Made by a program: the position numbers and the translations under genes
Part shown: positions 2,082 through 9,725 of the stretch, piece by piece
How positions within the stretch are numbered: position 1 is the first letter of the stretch
Layout of the letters: every line of letters begins with the position of its first letter
Source: Desulfonatronospira sp.
GTDB taxonomy: Bacteria; Desulfobacterota; Desulfovibrionia; Desulfovibrionales; Desulfonatronovibrionaceae
Length of the DNA stretch: 11,623 nucleotides
NCBI GenBank assembly: GCA_003563255.1
Contig: PWSL01000214.1
Span: forward strand, 1-11,623
Direction of reading: 5' to 3'
Notes under the pieces: generated by a model
The model's input: only the letters and a program-made list of their open reading frames with translations
The model's database searches: none
Told to the model about the DNA's origin: nothing

Positions 2082-3926
2082 ATGAAGGATCTGGACTATC
2101 ATTCTGAAACAGACGGTAAATCCGGTCTGGAAGATTACCCCTTAAGGGAGTGGCTCCAGGAACTGGAAGAGGCGACCTCCAGCCTGGGCCAGGTGGTGGC
2201 GGGCAGGGAAGACGAATTCCTGGAAATCGGCCAGGGGGTGCAGGACTTGTCAGTCCGTTCCCGGGAGTTGTCCTCCTGCTCAATGGAGCTGGCCGAGAAG
2301 GCTTCCGGCAAGACCCTCAAAGAGGATATGCAGGAGATGGACCGGGCCCTGGAGCAGATCCAGGACAAGTCTGAGAGTGTAGACCTGTCCCTGATCCTGG
2401 GAAGGTGCACTGATCTGGCCGGGGCTATTGCAAAACTGCACAAGGAGATGCAGCAGTTCAGGCCCATGCTCAAGCATCTCAGGGTACTGGCCATGTCCAT
2501 CCGAATCGAGAGCGCCAGGCTTGGCGAGGCCGGTAGACATTTTGTGACTCTGGCCCAGGAAGTGGAAAAACTGGGTCACAAGACTGATGAGTACTCCCGC
2601 CATGTGGGCCGGAGGGCAACGGATCTTCTGGGAGAAGTTCAGAAAGTCCAGGACCGGGTGGATATGACCCAGAAATTGCACTCAGGAGAGATAACGCCCC
2701 TTCTGGACAGGTTCTGCCAGGGAAACCAGGATCTCAAAGAGCTTCAGTCTTCATCCGAGCGCATTTCAAGCTCCATTTCCAGCCGCACCGAGGATATAAA
2801 AGAGCAGATCGGGGAGATCATCTCCTCGGTGCAGTTTCACGACATAACCAGGCAGCAGGTGGAGCATGTGCAGCAGAGCCTGGAAGAGGTCCAGATTTTT
2901 TTCCAGGGAGATCCCGGCCGGCAGCAGGACGATGCAGCCGGCATGATCAGCTGGCTCAACGATGTCTGTTCCCTGCAGTACCGGCAGCTTACATTTACAA
3001 AATCCGAGCTGGGCAGTGCAATGGACCGGATCAGGGAGAGCATCACAGCCATAGGCAGGTTTGCTGCAGAGCAGGAAAAGGACATGGATGGTTTTGCCGG
3101 TCTGGACTCCGGGAGCGGCAAAGGGGTGCTGGGAGAGCTGGAGCAGGATGCCTCAGAACTTATTCCCGCGTTGCAGCAGGCATCCACCCGTTTTGAGGAC
3201 GTGGTGGATCGACTTGACGGTATGGCCGGTGTCTTGGGGGATATGCAGAATCTTTTGGACACCCTTGAGGATATTGGCGAGGAAATAGAACTCATCGCCC
3301 TCAACGCCAGCGTCAAGTCGGCTCACACCGGTGATGAGGGCAAACCTCTGGGGGTCCTGGCCGGAGCCATTCACCGGCTTTCCAGAAGCACCAAGGACCT
3401 GGTCGCCCGCGTTTCAGGGGTGCTGGAAGAGATCGTTTCGGTTTCCGGGGATTTCAACTCCCATGCCGCAAGTGCAAGGGCCAGGGCCCAGAAGGAAGCC
3501 GCCCTCTGTGAAACCCTGGGCCAGGTACTCAACCGTCTGGCTCAATCCAATTCCGAGGCAGCCGCATTGCACGGTTCGCTGCGCCGGGACACGGCTGAAT
3601 TTCTCAAGCTGGTCAGAAGTCTGGAAGATAAAATGGATCTGCAGTTTGTGGTGGAAAAGGAATTGAGCTCTATCATCCAGCATCTGCAAAGGATTCAGGG
3701 TCAGGTCAGTGATCAGGTCCCTGAGTATGCAGAGGGCAGGTATTCTGAACGGCTGAAAAACAGCCTGCACCGTTATACCATGCAGTCTGAGCGCAGCGTG
3801 TTCTTGGAGTTTACAGGTGAGGGCCAAGCAGCAGGAAAGAATATGCCGGATGATAATATCGATCTTTTTGATGAGGATGCCGGGGAAGATGAAGACGGGT
3901 TCGGCGAAAACGTGGAACTGTTCTGA
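2082..3926 (+). CDS. Soluble double-tip receptor-like protein with CheZ-like features
   Basis: A 614-residue, mostly helical coiled-coil protein with no signal peptide or membrane segment, so cytoplasmic. It carries two degenerate copies of the chemoreceptor hairpin tip. The first (about 132-168) keeps the E143, R146 and E149 equivalents but has S139 for the conserved Asn. The second (about 400-440) keeps N408 but has K412 and H415 for the Glu and Arg. A segment at 249-264 contains D254-ITR-Q258, matching the D-x3-Q catalytic motif of the CheY-P phosphatase CheZ. The C-terminal 25 residues are very acidic and contain DDNIDLF (590-596) and end in ENVELF, recalling the CheZ tail that binds CheY-P. 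Start choice: ATG with AAGGA at 2074-2078, a short spacing. Receptor-like ancestry is secure. Phosphatase activity is inferred; a scaffold or cytoplasmic receptor is the alternative. Confidence 0.85.
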   Translation: MKDLDYHSETDGKSGLEDYPLREWLQELEEATSSLGQVVAGREDEFLEIGQGVQDLSVRSRELSSCSMELAEKASGKTLKEDMQEMDRALEQIQDKSESVDLSLILGRCTDLAGAIAKLHKEMQQFRPMLKHLRVLAMSIRIESARLGEAGRHFVTLAQEVEKLGHKTDEYSRHVGRRATDLLGEVQKVQDRVDMTQKLHSGEITPLLDRFCQGNQDLKELQSSSERISSSISSRTEDIKEQIGEIISSVQFHDITRQQVEHVQQSLEEVQIFFQGDPGRQQDDAAGMISWLNDVCSLQYRQLTFTKSELGSAMDRIRESITAIGRFAAEQEKDMDGFAGLDSGSGKGVLGELEQDASELIPALQQASTRFEDVVDRLDGMAGVLGDMQNLLDTLEDIGEEIELIALNASVKSAHTGDEGKPLGVLAGAIHRLSRSTKDLVARVSGVLEEIVSVSGDFNSHAASARARAQKEAALCETLGQVLNRLAQSNSEAAALHGSLRRDTAEFLKLVRSLEDKMDLQFVVEKELSSIIQHLQRIQGQVSDQVPEYAEGRYSERLKNSLHRYTMQSERSVFLEFTGEGQAAGKNMPDDNIDLFDEDAGEDEDGFGENVELF

Positions 3927-4008: not shown

Positions 4009-6081
4009 ATGAAAAACTTGAAGTTGGGTGTAAAATTGATGGGGGGCTTTATAATTGTGGCCCTCATAGTTCTGGTAGTGGGTTTTTTCGGCTGGAGGGG
4101 GGCCAACAATCTTGATGGTCATGTACATGAGATCGGCCAGGTCAATCTGCCCAGCATCAACAACCTCAGGATTGCGGAAAAGGAACTGGAAACATTGATG
4201 GTCGCTTTCCGGACCCTGCTCAACCCCGAGCTGAGCATGGAGGAAAGACAGGAGCAGCATCAAGCCATTGATGCAGCCAGATCAAGATACGGGCCGGCAA
4301 TGGATGCCTTTGAACAACTGCCCCGGACCAGTGAAGAAGATGCTCTCTGGAGCGAAATAGGAACCACTATTCAGCAATGGGCCGGGGTGAACGACGAATT
4401 TCTGGCCATGGCCAGGGAACTGGAGGATATAGGCATCCTGAACACAGATGAATTTCTGAGTATGCTCCAGGGGTTCAGAGGGGATCACTATGCCCTTATG
4501 GACAATATCGGCCGTTTTCTGCTGACCGGCCAGGATTTTGAGGGTGGAGACGATGCCAGGGCCTGTGCCTTCGGCCGCTGGATGGCTGATTTTCGCATTG
4601 ACAATCCCCAGATCACCGGGATGCTCCGGGATGTTGTCCCTTATCATAATGCCTTTCACGAAAGTGTGGCTGATATCAGGCAGGAAATGCAGGCCGACAA
4701 CGAGCAGGCGGCTATAGATATTTATTATGAACAGATGCTGCCTGCCGCGGAAAATACTTTCGGGTATTTTGACAGGCTCATCGAGATCGCTCAGGAGGCA
4801 GATGCTTTATATGACCAGATGAACCAGCTGGCCATGCAGGACTCCAGGGAGATGCAGCTGGCCGCCATGGAACTTATGGGGGAAATCATCGCCATCAATG
4901 AGCAGGGGGCGGCCCATGCCGTGTCAACGGCTGAAAACGATGCCGCCAACGCCATAACCGTTGCCCTGGCCGGGATGCTCATAGGGGTGGTGCTGGCCGT
5001 GGCTCTGGGAGCAGTGCTGACCAGGGCCATAACCGGCCCCGTAGCCAAGGGCGTGGCCTTTTCCGAGCAGATGGCCGACGGAGATATGACTCAGGCCCTG
5101 GATGTCAACCAGAAGGACGAAATAGGAATTCTGGCCGATTCCATGCGCCGCATGCAGGAAAAGCTCAAGGAAGTGGTGCAGGAAGTAAAGACTTCCGCGG
5201 ACAACGTGGCTGCTGGCAGCGAGGAAATGAGCTCTTCTTCTGAGGAGATGTCCCAGGGGGCCACGGAACAGGCCTCCAACCTGGAAGAGGTATCCTCCAA
5301 CATGGAGCAGATGGGCTCCAATATCCAGCAGAACGCCGACAATGCCGCTCAGACCGAAAAGATCGCCCTGCAGGCGGCCAAGGATGCCGAAGACGGCGGC
5401 AGGCAGGTCCAGGACACGGTCCAGGCCATGCGGGATATTGCTGAAAAGATCAACATTATCGAGGAAATCGCCCGCCAGACCAACTTGCTGGCCCTGAATG
5501 CGGCCATTGAAGCCGCCCGGGCCGGAGAGGCCGGCAAGGGATTCGCCGTGGTGGCTGCAGAGGTGCGCAAGCTGGCCGAAAGAAGCGGTCAGGCCGCCAA
5601 CGAGATCAGCGGGCTGTCAGCTTCCAGTGTGCAGGTAGCGGAAAAGGCCGGGGAAATGCTCAGAAAGATGGTCCCGGACATCCAGAAGACCGCCGATCTG
5701 GTCCAGGAGATCAGCGCATCCTCCAAAGAGCAGACCTCCGGGGCGGAGCAGATCAACAAGGCCATCCAGCAGCTGGATCAGGTGGTGCAGCAGAATGCTT
5801 CCGCTTCGGAAGAGCTGTCCTCCACTGCCGAGGAACTCTCCAGCCAGGCCCAGCAGCTGCAGGGAATCATCAGTTTCTTTAAGGTCGATGCCCGTGAAAG
5901 CGGCATCGGAAAGTCCCTGATGACCGGTAAAGCCTCTTCAGGCGGCAGACCTGTTAAAAAGACAGGCGACCGGATGCAGCTGGCCCACAAGGAACCCGGA
6001 CAGCAGGACCGGCAAAAGAAGCGCCTGTCCCTGGATATGGGAGCAGAGGACGCCGAGGATCAGGAGTTTGAAAAATACTAG
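4009..6081 (+). CDS. Membrane chemoreceptor with periplasmic CZB-like zinc site
   Basis: A 690-residue methyl-accepting chemotaxis protein that would sense a ligand across the inner membrane and control CheA. Membrane segments are at about 9-28 and 313-337, enclosing a long helical periplasmic domain. Within it, H160, C186 (in CAFGRW), H213 and H217 (HxxxH) reproduce the ligand pattern of the CZB zinc-binding domain, which in many receptors is cytoplasmic. A HAMP domain spans about 338-390, followed by the signalling hairpin with a canonical tip (about 488-525, [16 protein letters not shown] at 494-509). A hydrophilic tail of about 65 residues ends in EFEKY, fitting the x-[HFYW]-x2-[HFYW] CheR-docking pattern. 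AGGAGA at 3997-4002 with 6-nt spacing sets the start. It follows the soluble receptor-like gene by 82 nt. The ligand is unknown; redox, zinc or hypochlorite-type signals are possible by family analogy only. Confidence 0.96.
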
Positions 6082-6159: not shown

Positions 6160-6191
6160 GACATGATAACAGCAGAAAAACATGTTCCTCA

Positions 6192-6200
6192 GGGGAGGAG
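6192..6200 (+). promoter_or_regulatory. Ribosome binding site fixing the STAS gene start
   Basis: The purine run GGGGAGGAG lies 2 nt before the ATG at 6203, with GGAGG (6194-6198) at 4-nt spacing. It lies inside the longer frame that begins with the ATG at 6182, which has no such site, so 6203 is preferred. Confidence 0.7.
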
Positions 6201-6202
6201 TT

Positions 6203-6544
6203 ATGGAAGAACGTATGCCGGAAGAAAATACGATCTATACTTTGAGGCTGACCGGCGACTGCAGCGTGCAGCATGCCACTGATATCCTCAAGAGGTTCTC
6301 CCAGGCGCTGGAAACGACTGACAACCTGGCATTGGACCTGTCCGAGGTCGAAAACACGGACCTTTCCCTGCTGCAGATTATCTGCGCTGCTCACCAGTCT
6401 TTTGCAGCCAGGGCGAAAAAGATCAGTTTAAGCAGGCCCCCGGCCGATGCCGTTATTGCTGTATGGCGGGACGGCGGTTTCGGCCGGGTGTGCATGTTTG
6501 CACAAGAGGAATGTCTGTTCAAGGAGGTAAGCCTTAATGGGTAA
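6203..6544 (+). CDS. STAS-domain protein
   Basis: A 113-residue single-domain cytoplasmic protein of the STAS (SpoIIAA/anti-sigma antagonist) fold. The recognisable core is LALDLSEVENTDLSLLQIIC at about 42-61, corresponding to the beta strand and following helix that carry the phospho-site in SpoIIAA. There the usual D-S/T-x-G-L is replaced by D53-L54-S55-L56, so the Ser directly after the Asp is missing and regulation by a serine kinase is doubtful. It overlaps cheY by 8 nt (6537-6544), so the two are probably translationally coupled. STAS proteins of this shape occur in chemotaxis operons, but their role is not established; a protein-interaction partner in the array is a reasonable guess. 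The ATG at 6203 is chosen over 6182 for its ribosome site. Confidence 0.8.
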   Translation: MEERMPEENTIYTLRLTGDCSVQHATDILKRFSQALETTDNLALDLSEVENTDLSLLQIICAAHQSFAARAKKISLSRPPADAVIAVWRDGGFGRVCMFAQEECLFKEVSLNG

Positions 6545-6899
6545 GACGATAATGACAGTGGACGACTCATCCAGCGTACGCCAGATGGTCAGCTTTACCC
6601 TCAAGGATGCCGGCTATTCCGTGGTGGAGGCGGTGGACGGCAAGGACGCCCTGCAGAAGCTTCAGGGCCAGGTGGATATGATCATCACCGACCTGAACAT
6701 GCCCAACATGGACGGCATAGAACTCATAAAAAACGTCAGGGCCACCGCGGGCTACAAGTTCATTCCCATTGTTATGCTCACCACTGAATCCCAGAATGAA
6801 AAAAAGCAGGAGGGCAAACAGGCAGGGGCTTCCGGCTGGATCGTCAAGCCTTTCAAGCCGCCTCAGATCCTGGCCGTGGTCCAGAAACTGCTTAAATAG
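6537..6899 (+). CDS. cheY: CheY, single-domain response regulator
   Basis: A 120-residue stand-alone receiver domain with no output domain, the diffusible signal between CheA and the motor or another target. All key residues are present: D9 and D10 for magnesium, phospho-acceptor D52, T82 (the T87 equivalent) and K104 (the K109 equivalent), with the E. coli spacing of 30 and 52 residues from the Asp. The switch aromatic (Y106 equivalent) is W101, a common substitution. AAGGAGG at 6521-6527 gives a strong ribosome site inside the end of the STAS gene. It sits 9 nt before cheA, so CheA is its likely phosphodonor. A role other than flagellar motor control cannot be excluded from sequence. Confidence 0.95.
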   Translation: MGKTIMTVDDSSSVRQMVSFTLKDAGYSVVEAVDGKDALQKLQGQVDMIITDLNMPNMDGIELIKNVRATAGYKFIPIVMLTTESQNEKKQEGKQAGASGWIVKPFKPPQILAVVQKLLK

Positions 6900-6908
6900 G
6901 AAATTGCC

Positions 6909-9056
6909 ATGACCCGAGAAAACATGTCGGATAAAGAAAAGATGCAGCAGGCCTTCCTGGAGGAAGCAGGCGACCTTCTGCCGGAACTGGAGACCGCCCT
7001 TCTGGAGCTGGATAGTGATCCCGGGGACGCGGATCTGGTCAACAGAGTGTTCCGAGCCCTGCACACCATCAAGGGTTCGGGTGCCATGTTCGGATTTGAA
7101 GAGGTGGCTGAGTTCACCCATGAGCTGGAGAACGCCTTTGAAATGGTCCGCTGCGGTGAGCTGCAGGTGAGTAAAGAACTTCTGGATTTGACCTTGAGCG
7201 CCAAGGATCAGATCCAGAATCTTCTCGGAGATCCCCAGGATCATGACCAGGAGGCGATGCAGAGCATCCTGGAAGCCTTGAAAGAGATTCTGCCCCTTGA
7301 GCATTCAACGCAAGGTCAGGGTGAAGGTTTGGAAGAGGAGCAGCAGCCTGCAGGGGAGAAGCTGGTTTACCGTATCCGCTTCAAGCCCGAAAAGTCCATA
7401 TTTGCTACAGGTACCAACCCCTTGCACCTTCTGGAAGAGATCCGGGAACTTGGCCAGGCCTGTGTCATCGCACACGGCGAAGATATCCCCCCCCTGGATA
7501 AGATTGATCCCGAACAGTGCCATGTATGGTGGGATATTATTCTGACCACGACACAGGGCAAGAACGCCATCCAGGACGTGTTCATTTTCGTGGATGAGGA
7601 CAGCGAGCTGAATATCCAGCTCATTGACCACGGTACAGAGTCCGGGCAGGCGGAAGGTTACCGCAGGCTGGGAGAGATACTTACCGAGCGCGGGGACATC
7701 AGTCGTCAGGAACTGGAAAGTGTCCTGGGTAACCAGAAGCGTTTGGGAGAACTGCTGATCCAGGCGGGACTGGTAAGCAGATCCCAGGTGGAAACAGCCC
7801 TGGTCGAGCAGCAGACAGTGCGCAAGCTTCAGGAGGAGCGAACCAGGGATGTCTCCTCTTCAAGCGTTCGCGTACCCGCTGCCAAACTTGACGATCTGGT
7901 CAACCTGGTGGGAGAGCTGGTCATAGCCCAGGCCAAGCTGACCCGTATGATCGGAGATCATGAAAACCGCGAACTCAAAAACATCTCCGAAGAAATCGAG
8001 CGCCTGTCTGATGAACTCAGGGACAATACTCTGGGCATCAGAATGTTGCCCATCGGCTCCAGTTTCGGAAAATTCCGCAGGGTGGTCAGGGATCTGAGCA
8101 GTCAAAAAGGCAAGGAGATCGAGCTGGTGACCGAGGGTGCCGAGACTGAGCTGGACAAGACGGTTATTGAGAGGATCAACGATCCTTTGGTACACCTTCT
8201 GCGCAACAGCATTGATCACGGAATCGAGTCTCCTGCAGAACGCGTCAGGCTGGGCAAGCCCAGGCAGGGCACAATAACTTTTTCGGCCATGCAGTCCGGG
8301 GGCAACGTTGTTCTGACTATCAGAGATGACGGCCGGGGCATGGATCCCGAGGTCATCAAGGCCAAGGCCCTGGAAAAGGGTATTATACCCCCCGGAGCTG
8401 AGCTGAGTGGCAAAGAGATATTAAATCTGATTTTTCTGCCCGGTTTTTCCACCTCCAGGGAGATAAGCGATATCTCCGGGAGAGGAGTGGGTATGGATGT
8501 GGTCAAGCAGAACATAAACGCCCTGCGGGGCAGGGTCGAGGCAGACAGCATTCCGGGTCAGGGCAGTACCATCAGGATCAGCCTGCCCCTTACTCTGGCA
8601 ATCATCGAAGGGCTGCAGGTCAGAGTGGGAGAACAGTACTTCATCATTCCCCTGAGCGTGGTGAGCGAATGCGTGGAACTGACCTCTGAAGAGAAACAGA
8701 ATCGCAGCTCAGGCAGGCTCATCCCTCTTCGAGACACCCTGGTGCCCTATATCCGTCTGCGGGAATGGTTTCTCATCGAGGGCGTCCCCCCGGCAATCGA
8801 GCAGGTGGTCATGGTCAGCAGCACTCAGATGACCGTGGGCCTGGCCGTGGATGAGGTAATAGGCCAGCAGCAGACGGTGATCAAGAACCTTGGGCAGGCA
8901 TATCAGGATGTCCAGGGCATCTACGGGGCGACCATCAACGGTGACGGCAGCATCGCCCTGATCCTGGATATCGAGCCCCTGGTGCGCGACGTGAGAAGCA
9001 ATGAATCCAATCCGGCGGTTGAGTCCTCCTTCGGATTCAACACAGAGGCGTCATGA
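6909..9056 (+). CDS. cheA: CheA, chemotaxis histidine kinase
   Basis: A 715-residue cytoplasmic histidine kinase that would pass phosphate from H52 to CheY. Domains in order: P1 Hpt domain (about 8-110) with LHTIKGSG around H52; a P2-like domain (about 152-240) of the type in delta-proteobacterial CheAs; a tandem pair of 24-residue motifs (253-276 and 278-301) with the RLG…G…L…L..Q pattern of the MshEN/GspE N-domain; P3 dimerisation (about 318-375); the P4 ATPase with N-box N433, DDGRG (473-477) and GRGVGMD (524-530); and a CheW-like P5 domain (about 565-690). The start is supported by AGGA at 6898-6901 with 7-nt spacing. It follows cheY by 9 nt. The tandem motif between P2 and P3 is not in E. 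coli CheA. The identification is very secure. Confidence 0.98.
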   Translation: MTRENMSDKEKMQQAFLEEAGDLLPELETALLELDSDPGDADLVNRVFRALHTIKGSGAMFGFEEVAEFTHELENAFEMVRCGELQVSKELLDLTLSAKDQIQNLLGDPQDHDQEAMQSILEALKEILPLEHSTQGQGEGLEEEQQPAGEKLVYRIRFKPEKSIFATGTNPLHLLEEIRELGQACVIAHGEDIPPLDKIDPEQCHVWWDIILTTTQGKNAIQDVFIFVDEDSELNIQLIDHGTESGQAEGYRRLGEILTERGDISRQELESVLGNQKRLGELLIQAGLVSRSQVETALVEQQTVRKLQEERTRDVSSSSVRVPAAKLDDLVNLVGELVIAQAKLTRMIGDHENRELKNISEEIERLSDELRDNTLGIRMLPIGSSFGKFRRVVRDLSSQKGKEIELVTEGAETELDKTVIERINDPLVHLLRNSIDHGIESPAERVRLGKPRQGTITFSAMQSGGNVVLTIRDDGRGMDPEVIKAKALEKGIIPPGAELSGKEILNLIFLPGFSTSREISDISGRGVGMDVVKQNINALRGRVEADSIPGQGSTIRISLPLTLAIIEGLQVRVGEQYFIIPLSVVSECVELTSEEKQNRSSGRLIPLRDTLVPYIRLREWFLIEGVPPAIEQVVMVSSTQMTVGLAVDEVIGQQQTVIKNLGQAYQDVQGIYGATINGDGSIALILDIEPLVRDVRSNESNPAVESSFGFNTEAS

Positions 9057-9116: not shown

Positions 9117-9725
9117 ATGGCCTTTACCTACTTTTTCAGAGACAGGCAGACCCTGGAACTCATCAGGGATATCGTGGTGCCCAAGCTGCGCTCCCGCAGG
9201 TTTATCAGCATCTGGGACGCCGGGTGCGCCATGGGGCCGGAGCCTTACTCGGTGGCCATTACTCTCAGGGAGAATATGGGGGCCATGTGTTTCAGGAATG
9301 TTACCATACATGCCACGGATATCGACGGCAGTAACCAGTTCAAACAGGAAATAGAGGCCGGGCTGTATCATCGGGAAAGGCTGCACAGCGTCCCCCGGGA
9401 GATAATGGAGCATTATTTTCAAACAACCGACACGGACGACTGGTACCTGATAGCCGATGAAATCAGAAAGAGCGTAGTGTTTCAAAAGCACGACCTGCTG
9501 ACCCTGCAGCCCATAAGAAAAAACTTCTCCCTGGTTATCTGCAAGAATGTCCTTTTGCACTTCAAGGAGAGCGAGCGGGTGGAGGTTATCCGTATGTTTC
9601 ATTCGTGCCTGGAGGATGGGGGGTACTTTGTAACCGAGCATACTCAGAAGATGCCTGAAAAACTGAGCCATCTTTTTTCGCCGGTTACCTCCAATGCCCA
9701 GATTTACCAGAAGAGAGCGGCCTAG
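9117..9725 (+). CDS. cheR: Mini-CheR, chemoreceptor methyltransferase lacking its N-terminal domain
   Basis: A 202-residue protein matching the catalytic part of CheR, which uses S-adenosylmethionine to methylate receptor glutamates. FFRD (6-9) corresponds to the FFR motif, the SAM-binding loop is WDAGCAMGPEPYS (33-45), the acidic ATDID follows at 66-70, and KNVLLHF (143-149) matches the conserved RNV-x-IYF motif. In E. coli-type CheR roughly 80-90 residues forming an all-helical domain precede the FFR motif; here only five do. Upstream in the same frame there are 20 codons without ATG, GTG or TTG and then the CheA stop, so no longer start exists. The ribosome site is weak. It is followed directly by the MBL gene. 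Catalytic fold is secure; whether it methylates receptors without the N-domain is open. Confidence 0.88.
   Translation: MAFTYFFRDRQTLELIRDIVVPKLRSRRFISIWDAGCAMGPEPYSVAITLRENMGAMCFRNVTIHATDIDGSNQFKQEIEAGLYHRERLHSVPREIMEHYFQTTDTDDWYLIADEIRKSVVFQKHDLLTLQPIRKNFSLVICKNVLLHFKESERVEVIRMFHSCLEDGGYFVTEHTQKMPEKLSHLFSPVTSNAQIYQKRAA

Follow-up and report, generated by a model that had tools for sequence, protein, structure and literature searches.

A receptor-like protein lies in a row of chemotaxis genes

The window analyzed in this study, 11,623 nucleotides from Desulfonatronospira sp. (contig PWSL01000214.1 of assembly GCA_003563255.1), is one entire contig, so that genes outside it were not visible. 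A row of chemotaxis genes occupies its + strand, from a regulator at 369-1781 through CheR and beyond:

369-1781, + strand: sigma-54-type response regulator (sigma-54 activator)
2082-3926, + strand: receptor-like, putatively CheZ-type protein of 614 residues (open reading frame and Pfam scan)
4009-6081, + strand: membrane chemoreceptor with 4HB, CZB, HAMP and MCPsignal domains and a C-terminal EFEKY (Pfam scan)
6182-6544, + strand: STAS-domain protein (Pfam scan)
6537-6899, + strand: CheY, the presumed substrate, with D9/D10, D52, T82 and K104 present
6909-9056, + strand: CheA, into which an MshE-type c-di-GMP-binding motif is inserted
9117-9725, + strand: CheR (Pfam scan)
after CheR, + strand: metallo-beta-lactamase-fold protein, ParA-type ATPase and the first part of a PAS protein

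A sigma-54-like site, TTGGCACAGGTTTTGATA, was seen by eye at 1972-1989, 5' of the gene for the 614-residue protein and beside the activator gene at 369-1781. The membrane receptor at 4009-6081 carries the zinc-binding CZB domain, and its EFEKY end is close to EFEKF, which a 2008 survey gives as the CheR tether of Geobacter class 34H receptors (PMC2577667). The insert in CheA matched NF053729 at residues 253-301 (51.6 bits, where the cut-off is 38), and this MshE-type motif suggests direct c-di-GMP input to the kinase.

The numbering by which a first-pass annotation had named D52 as the phosphorylation residue of CheY was correct. That annotation had also noticed no CheZ, CheC or CheX nearby, and our scan agreed, since none of the ten window proteins scanned exceeded the cut-offs. 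The 614-residue protein itself gave a weak match to Pfam CheZ (PF04344) of 11.1 bits, under the curated cut-off of 30.7.

The 614-residue protein consists of receptor-type hairpins

With Pfam MCPsignal (PF00015), for which the cut-off is 34.6 bits, the 614-residue protein scored 68.9 bits; it contains two MCP-like stretches, that is, two chemoreceptor-type hairpins. There was no further Pfam domain above cut-off and hence no sensor or input domain recognizable by Pfam. The protein is soluble, with no transmembrane-like segment and a highest 19-residue hydropathy of 1.14; a membrane anchor is dispensable in soluble receptors. Its features are listed below, where fractions refer to the 229 rows of the pooled alignment described in the next section:

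2139-2906, + strand: hairpin 1, N-terminal and chemoreceptor-type, residues 20-275
2208-2231, + strand: conserved block EFLxxG, residues 43-50 (227/229 rows have E43 and F46, gaps in 2)
2478-2573, + strand: receptor-tip region of hairpin 1, residues 133-164, IESARLGEAGRHF
2832-2855, + strand: catalytic-type motif QFHDITRQ, residues 251-258 (D254 at 2841-2843, Q258 at 2853-2855)
3126-3632, + strand: hairpin 2, chemoreceptor-type, residues 349-517, tip at about 404-427
3774-3794, + strand: YTMxxER motif, residues 565-571 (Y565 226/229, M567 225/229, R571 224/229)
3849-3869, + strand: internal tail motif copy DDNIDLF, residues 590-596
3906-3926, + strand: C-terminal tail motif ENVELF and stop (F614 226/229, L613 223/229)

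Hairpin 2 has its best MCPsignal stretch at residues 366-506 and its helices at 349-415 and 421-517 in the model, and an hhalign comparison with canonical MCPs gave a probability of 98.7. Both tips are recognizable. Tip 1 drifts among relatives, with E143 kept in 228/229 rows, S144 in 209/229 and R146 in 205/229. The YTMxxER motif is nearly invariant, and a looser version of it is common to the single-hairpin relatives described below. By profile and model, the 614-residue protein is a receptor-family protein. Where a source gives a relative a name, this is mostly methyl-accepting chemotaxis protein, at times hypothetical protein.

Both AlphaFold2 models put QFHDITRQ inside a long helix, in line with the helical segment that had been described for it. 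The model of hairpin 1 was fitted on the Tsr tip chain 6s1k_E over 102/102 residues at 1.6 A. This fit requires a turn near residue 149, which was taken as present, though DSSP shows no break at tip 1. On this model the D254/Q258 site maps to about the level of the methylation helices of Tsr, away from the receptor tip. The idea of a phosphatase site at the receptor tip was thus not borne out, as D254 lies 100 residues from the tip. From the symmetrical spacing about the tip, the EFLxxG block may face the DxxxQ motif across hairpin 1. No CheZ chain was among the 50 matches listed per Foldseek or VIA-align search, a comparison that is uninformative for long helical bundles. The full-length model was discarded as a guide to function, since it matches many unrelated helical proteins.

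Like the chemoreceptors (PF00015; Tsr and the soluble receptor 3g67), the protein has the hairpin fold, the tip position and the MCPsignal match. It differs from them in having no membrane or sensor domain, in the DxxxQ motif at about the methylation-helix level, in the drifting tip 1 and in a tail unlike CheR tethers. It could nevertheless be a soluble receptor adaptor, whose tips join arrays and tune CheA, whose tail is a CheR/CheB tether of the NWETF/EFEKF kind and in which DxxRQ structurally replaces the methylation region. An MCPsignal score above cut-off and the position of D254 are what such an adaptor would be expected to have, but it is tip 1 that drifts in the family, while D254 and Q258 do not. 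We consider this reading improbable, also in view of the tail ends given below.

D254 and Q258 are invariant among relatives

The conservation of D254 and Q258 was examined in three sets of relatives. A protein search gave 340 relatives, and among the matches listed, 120 (window protein included) were aligned; D254/Q258 are kept in 120/120. A whole-protein search of 297 genomes of the phylum gave 38 matches in 34 genomes, the window's own included, and 29 of the 37 others were read. All 29 keep D and Q despite changes in the flanks (QMHDMTRQ, QSHDITRQ, QVHDITRQ, QYQDITRQ and QTQDATRQ). The best 80 of 197 loci from a pattern-based scan were added. These loci are not independent evidence, because the patterns include the motif; the exception is five loci found by the tip pattern only, which also retain D and Q. 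A single-protein scan of genome contigs gave no relatives of the 614-residue protein.

The pooled alignment holds 229 rows, 219 of them distinct over the query columns because the source sets overlap. D254 and Q258 are kept in 229/229 rows, and likewise in 181/181 clusters at 90% identity and 73/73 at 50%; free variation among homologues, which would have spoken against the proposal, was not seen. The 614-residue protein holds four D-x3-Q pairs, so a D-x3-Q pair alone means little; only 254/258 is conserved, the other three being kept in 4, 1 and 1 of 229 rows. In 55 receptor open reading frames from the same loci, F[HQ]D-x3-Q occurs in none. The spacing from the tip phenylalanine to D254 is 100 residues in 215/227 rows. 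A correlated change in the lengths of the two arms, which would have been evidence of pairing, was looked for and not found (Spearman -0.08); the C-arm length hardly varies.

R257, H262, A313 and F154 are also kept in 229/229 rows. Since R257 and H262 are as invariant as the pair itself, the block may be a binding surface, and the protein a non-catalytic binder of CheY-P, in which the D/Q block and the tail act as a sink, a shield or a scaffold bringing CheY to the array, without hydrolysis. However, for mere binding there is no need to preserve exactly the catalytic pair of CheZ when the residues next to it change: F252 is kept in 219/229 rows, and position 253 is H in 222/229 and Q in 7/229. 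In the single-hairpin relatives FQDxxxQ is retained even where R is lost, as in P0154 (QFQDLIAQ). Binding without catalysis therefore appears rather unlikely.

The likeness to CheZ is nearly confined to the catalytic segment

CheZ (PF04344) and the family share the DxxxQ pair after F-[HQ], a helical hairpin, a flexible linker, a hydrophobic C-terminal peptide ending in F and a gene near cheY. The extended CheZ motif is given in PMC7750401 as AxxFQDxxxQ, with AxxFQ directly on the N-terminal side of DxxxQ. The two-hairpin family mostly has SxQFHDIxRQ, and some rows carry A or Q; S stands in 117/120 listed relatives at the position where CheZ has A. Examples from true CheZ proteins of this phylum are SFQDITGQ and QDFQDLTGQ, and the usual D-x-T-G-Q of CheZ differs from D-x-x-R-Q in the family. 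The family scaffold is a receptor hairpin, duplicated in the 614-residue protein, unlike that of CheZ.

Pfam CheZ matched none of 40 members above cut-off, while 19/40 matched at E <= 1 (best E 6.6e-6). The best score among the scanned relatives was 26.6 bits against 30.7, and in ten further relatives Pfam CheZ appeared in seven, always under cut-off. A precomputed CheZ label is present on 2/120 listed relatives. By the sequence test, the 614-residue protein is thus outside the CheZ family. Pfam CheZ matches were discarded as proof on their own, as some unrelated coiled-coil families match more members (Baculo_PEP_C in 25/40).

When hairpin 1 was compared by hhalign with 22 CheZ proteins of the phylum, the probability was 50.6 and E was 1.6e-4 (for one comparison), and the DxxxQ motifs aligned in register. 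In the controls, the probability against CheZ was 0.8 for seven canonical MCPs from the same genome and 17.2 for the C-terminal hairpin. Among 5458 open reading frames of the 80 loci, a CheZ HMM gave 41 matches at E <= 1, of which 39 were family members and two were not; 41/80 family open reading frames had no match at this threshold. Masking of the motif lowered the median CheZ-HMM score of the 229 rows from 10.9 to 2.9 bits, compared with 2.6 bits for the 55 receptor open reading frames, and 18/229 rows against 2/55 receptors still exceeded 10 bits. As masking brings the scores to about the receptor level, the likeness to CheZ is nearly confined to the catalytic segment.

The motif might instead belong to a HisKA_3-like phosphotransfer helix, with HDxxxQ as the dimerization and phosphotransfer motif and H253 phosphorylated. 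The letters HDITRQ presumably fit the HisKA_3 H-box. DxxxQ is the catalytic pair common to CheZ and the HisKA_3 sensor phosphatases (NarX type), according to PMC3510030; like the latter, the family carries it on a helix. However, relatives do without the histidine that precedes D, since Q replaces H253 in the seven rows noted above and in 118/118 listed Nitrospira-type relatives. The family has no kinase domain, and neither HisKA_3 nor HATPase matched the 614-residue protein at E <= 1. A phosphotransfer role is therefore highly improbable. CheX and CheC presumably act on the same substrate as the family, but CheX uses ExxN in place of DxxxQ (PMC3510030).

Single-hairpin relatives keep the pair and its distance from the tip

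A profile search with hairpin 1 gave 44 proteins. A motif scan found QFHD- or QFQD-type motifs in all of these except P0133 (207 residues) and nine weak matches (P0156-P0164), ten proteins in total. Eight short proteins with one hairpin, from these matches and from three fetched loci, were inspected, and seven were aligned: P0138, P0140, P0147, P0154 and the genes in loci L158, L159 and L160. P0150 was omitted from the alignment; QFQDITRQ is present in it, but its tip has no phenylalanine and it has no tail motif. QFQDxxxQ is invariant in the seven aligned proteins, with D at 100 residues from the tip in five of them and at 102 in the other two. The single-hairpin relatives have a canonical receptor tip. 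Those of L158, L159 and L160 have a hydrophobic N-terminal segment, and a receiver-domain open reading frame of 127-130 residues follows each of these three genes.

A profile search with the seven single-hairpin relatives gave 7994 proteins, of which 120 were listed and 118 of these were new. All 118 carry FQDITRQ at a spacing of 100, and they belong to Nitrospirota where the source names an organism. The matches beyond the 120 listed probably include many ordinary receptors. A scan of viral contigs with P0170 as the query gave no relative.

The acidic tail is a possible CheY-docking peptide

The long acidic tail with DDNIDLF (590-596) and a terminal ENVELF (609-614) is present as first described, and its last 30 residues hold 12 D/E and 1 K/R. 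It had been likened to the C-terminal peptide of CheZ, of which we found no recognizable copy: the CheZ tail is DVDALLAEFGF-like, whereas the family tails carry a motif of their own, in most cases x-[VI]-x-[LF]-F. A DNA pattern for the NVELF-type end had its sole exact match in the genome in the gene for the 614-residue protein.

The linker from YTMxxER to the C-terminus was 4 to 107 residues long in the 222 rows with this motif. These 222 tails end in NVELF (153), NIELF (33), NVDLF (22) and a few other forms, including NFELF (3). Copies of x-[VIL]-[ED]-[LFM]-F numbered none in 4 tails, one in 169 and two to seven in 49. The motif occurred in the last 60 residues of 0/55 receptor open reading frames from the same loci, and upstream of the last 120 residues of the family it occurred once in 116,334 residues. 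Loci L081, L082, L083, L090 and L093 carry tandem DDNVELF-type repeats, and a tail in the family can have as many as seven copies. Such repeats look like a multivalent docking tail, and they would also suit a sponge for CheY-P as in the non-catalytic reading above.

The tail also bears on the adaptor reading. NVELF resembles NWETF and EFEKF, both described for receptors as tethers in the survey cited above (PMC2577667), and the three NFELF ends have an aromatic residue at the aromatic position of the tether. However, an aromatic-x-x-[FY] end, the form of a tether, is found in 3/229 family rows against 34/55 receptor open reading frames of the same loci, and the usual ends are those counted above. 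The motif is also internal, with at least two copies in 49/222 tails, and 112/118 listed Nitrospira-type relatives end in [VI]TLF. The conserved ends, the repeats and the rarity of tether-form ends therefore favor a CheY-docking peptide over a CheR tether, and the tail may dock CheY rather than CheR.

CheA, and usually CheY, follow the family gene

Gene order was counted in the 71 of 80 loci with at least 1.5 kb 3' of the family gene. In 70/71 loci CheA was on the same strand and started no more than 1.5 kb past the family gene; for CheY, by a strict rule, the count was 61/71. In L078, L084 and L087 the CheY frame opens just before the end of the family gene. In L095, L114, L122, L135 and L143 CheA comes directly after the family gene, with no CheY between them. 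CheY is about 9 kb away in L131, and neither CheA nor CheY was found within 1.7 kb in L100. The five loci with CheA directly after the family gene are from Desulfovibrio/Solidesulfovibrio records; L095, L114, L122 and L143 read QSHDIVRQ, and L135 reads QFHDIVRQ. The titles of the locus records name Desulfovibrio, Geobacter, Syntrophus, Nitrospirae, Ignavibacteria, Kuenenia and Planctomycetota, among others, and single organism titles may be wrong because many records are metagenome bins.

Other phosphatases were also looked for. Genome-wide, no CheZ was found above cut-off, and the only match to the CheZ model at E <= 10 was the 614-residue protein itself (16.9 bits). Outside the window, the genome has CheX-family matches above cut-off at four places; one of these matches is a better fit to DUF3334, and two of the four places also have CheC matches above cut-off. 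The genome has four CheA-type matches and one FliM, whose N-terminus, MNKILDQGEVDALL, presumably fits the usual CheY-P-binding motif.

CheZ above cut-off is also held by 15 of the 34 family-bearing genomes of the phylum; as the CheZ search covered 294 genomes and the family search 297, a few of the other 19 may lie outside the CheZ search. The family therefore does not simply replace CheZ, and the coexistence is compatible with the non-catalytic reading as well. The 2008 survey states that three Geobacter genomes have no cheZ, that a CheZ-independent signaling mechanism must operate there and that the same three genomes have cheC and cheX (PMC2577667). Family loci in Geobacter-type records adjoin CheY and CheA, and these records are not necessarily the three surveyed genomes. 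By term counts, CheZ and phosphatase are absent from the main text of the paper on Desulfovibrio vulgaris CheA3, and no description of a receptor-shaped CheZ-like protein was found in open-licence PMC papers.

A predicted CheY-P phosphatase on a receptor-type scaffold

The 614-residue protein is kin to receptors, with an invariant D254/Q258 at a fixed distance from the tip, a conserved tail and a conserved gene order with CheA and usually CheY. A protein filed as a receptor that carries the conserved catalytic pair of CheZ and adjoins the gene of its likely target is therefore probably a new, receptor-shaped means of switching off the swimming signal. We thus predict, with good though not full confidence, that the protein is a CheY-P phosphatase on a chemoreceptor-type hairpin, CheZ-like in action.

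In the mechanism that we propose, the hairpin would dimerize into a four-helix bundle, like those of receptors and CheZ. D254 would meet the conserved lysine of CheY-P, here K104, and, as happens in CheZ, the side chain of Q258 would position a water to attack phosphorylated D52. The acidic tail, in which a flexible linker bears usually one and at most seven x-[VI]-x-[LF]-F-like copies, may catch CheY and so concentrate it locally. Through its receptor-type tip the enzyme may come to lie within the array of receptors and CheA or close to it.

We consider the chances about even that the relatives form a widespread family of CheY-P phosphatases derived from receptor hairpins. In these, a constant 100 residues would separate the CheZ pair from the tip and put it at the methylation level; the single-hairpin relatives, whose tip is canonical, would lie within the array and erase the signal at its source, and the multivalent tails would hoard CheY.

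A chemotaxis pathway needs some means of erasing CheY-P. Such a widespread family would provide the function of CheZ to the che clusters of several groups, among them Desulfovibrio- and Geobacter-type bacteria and Nitrospira. It would also suggest a common ancestry of CheZ and receptors or convergence on one bundle; the likeness in sequence to CheZ does not show ancestry. If the activity is real, proteins named receptors in the databases are enzymes. The fixed spacing of 100 residues would then be a ruler from the receptor tip to the place of dephosphorylation.
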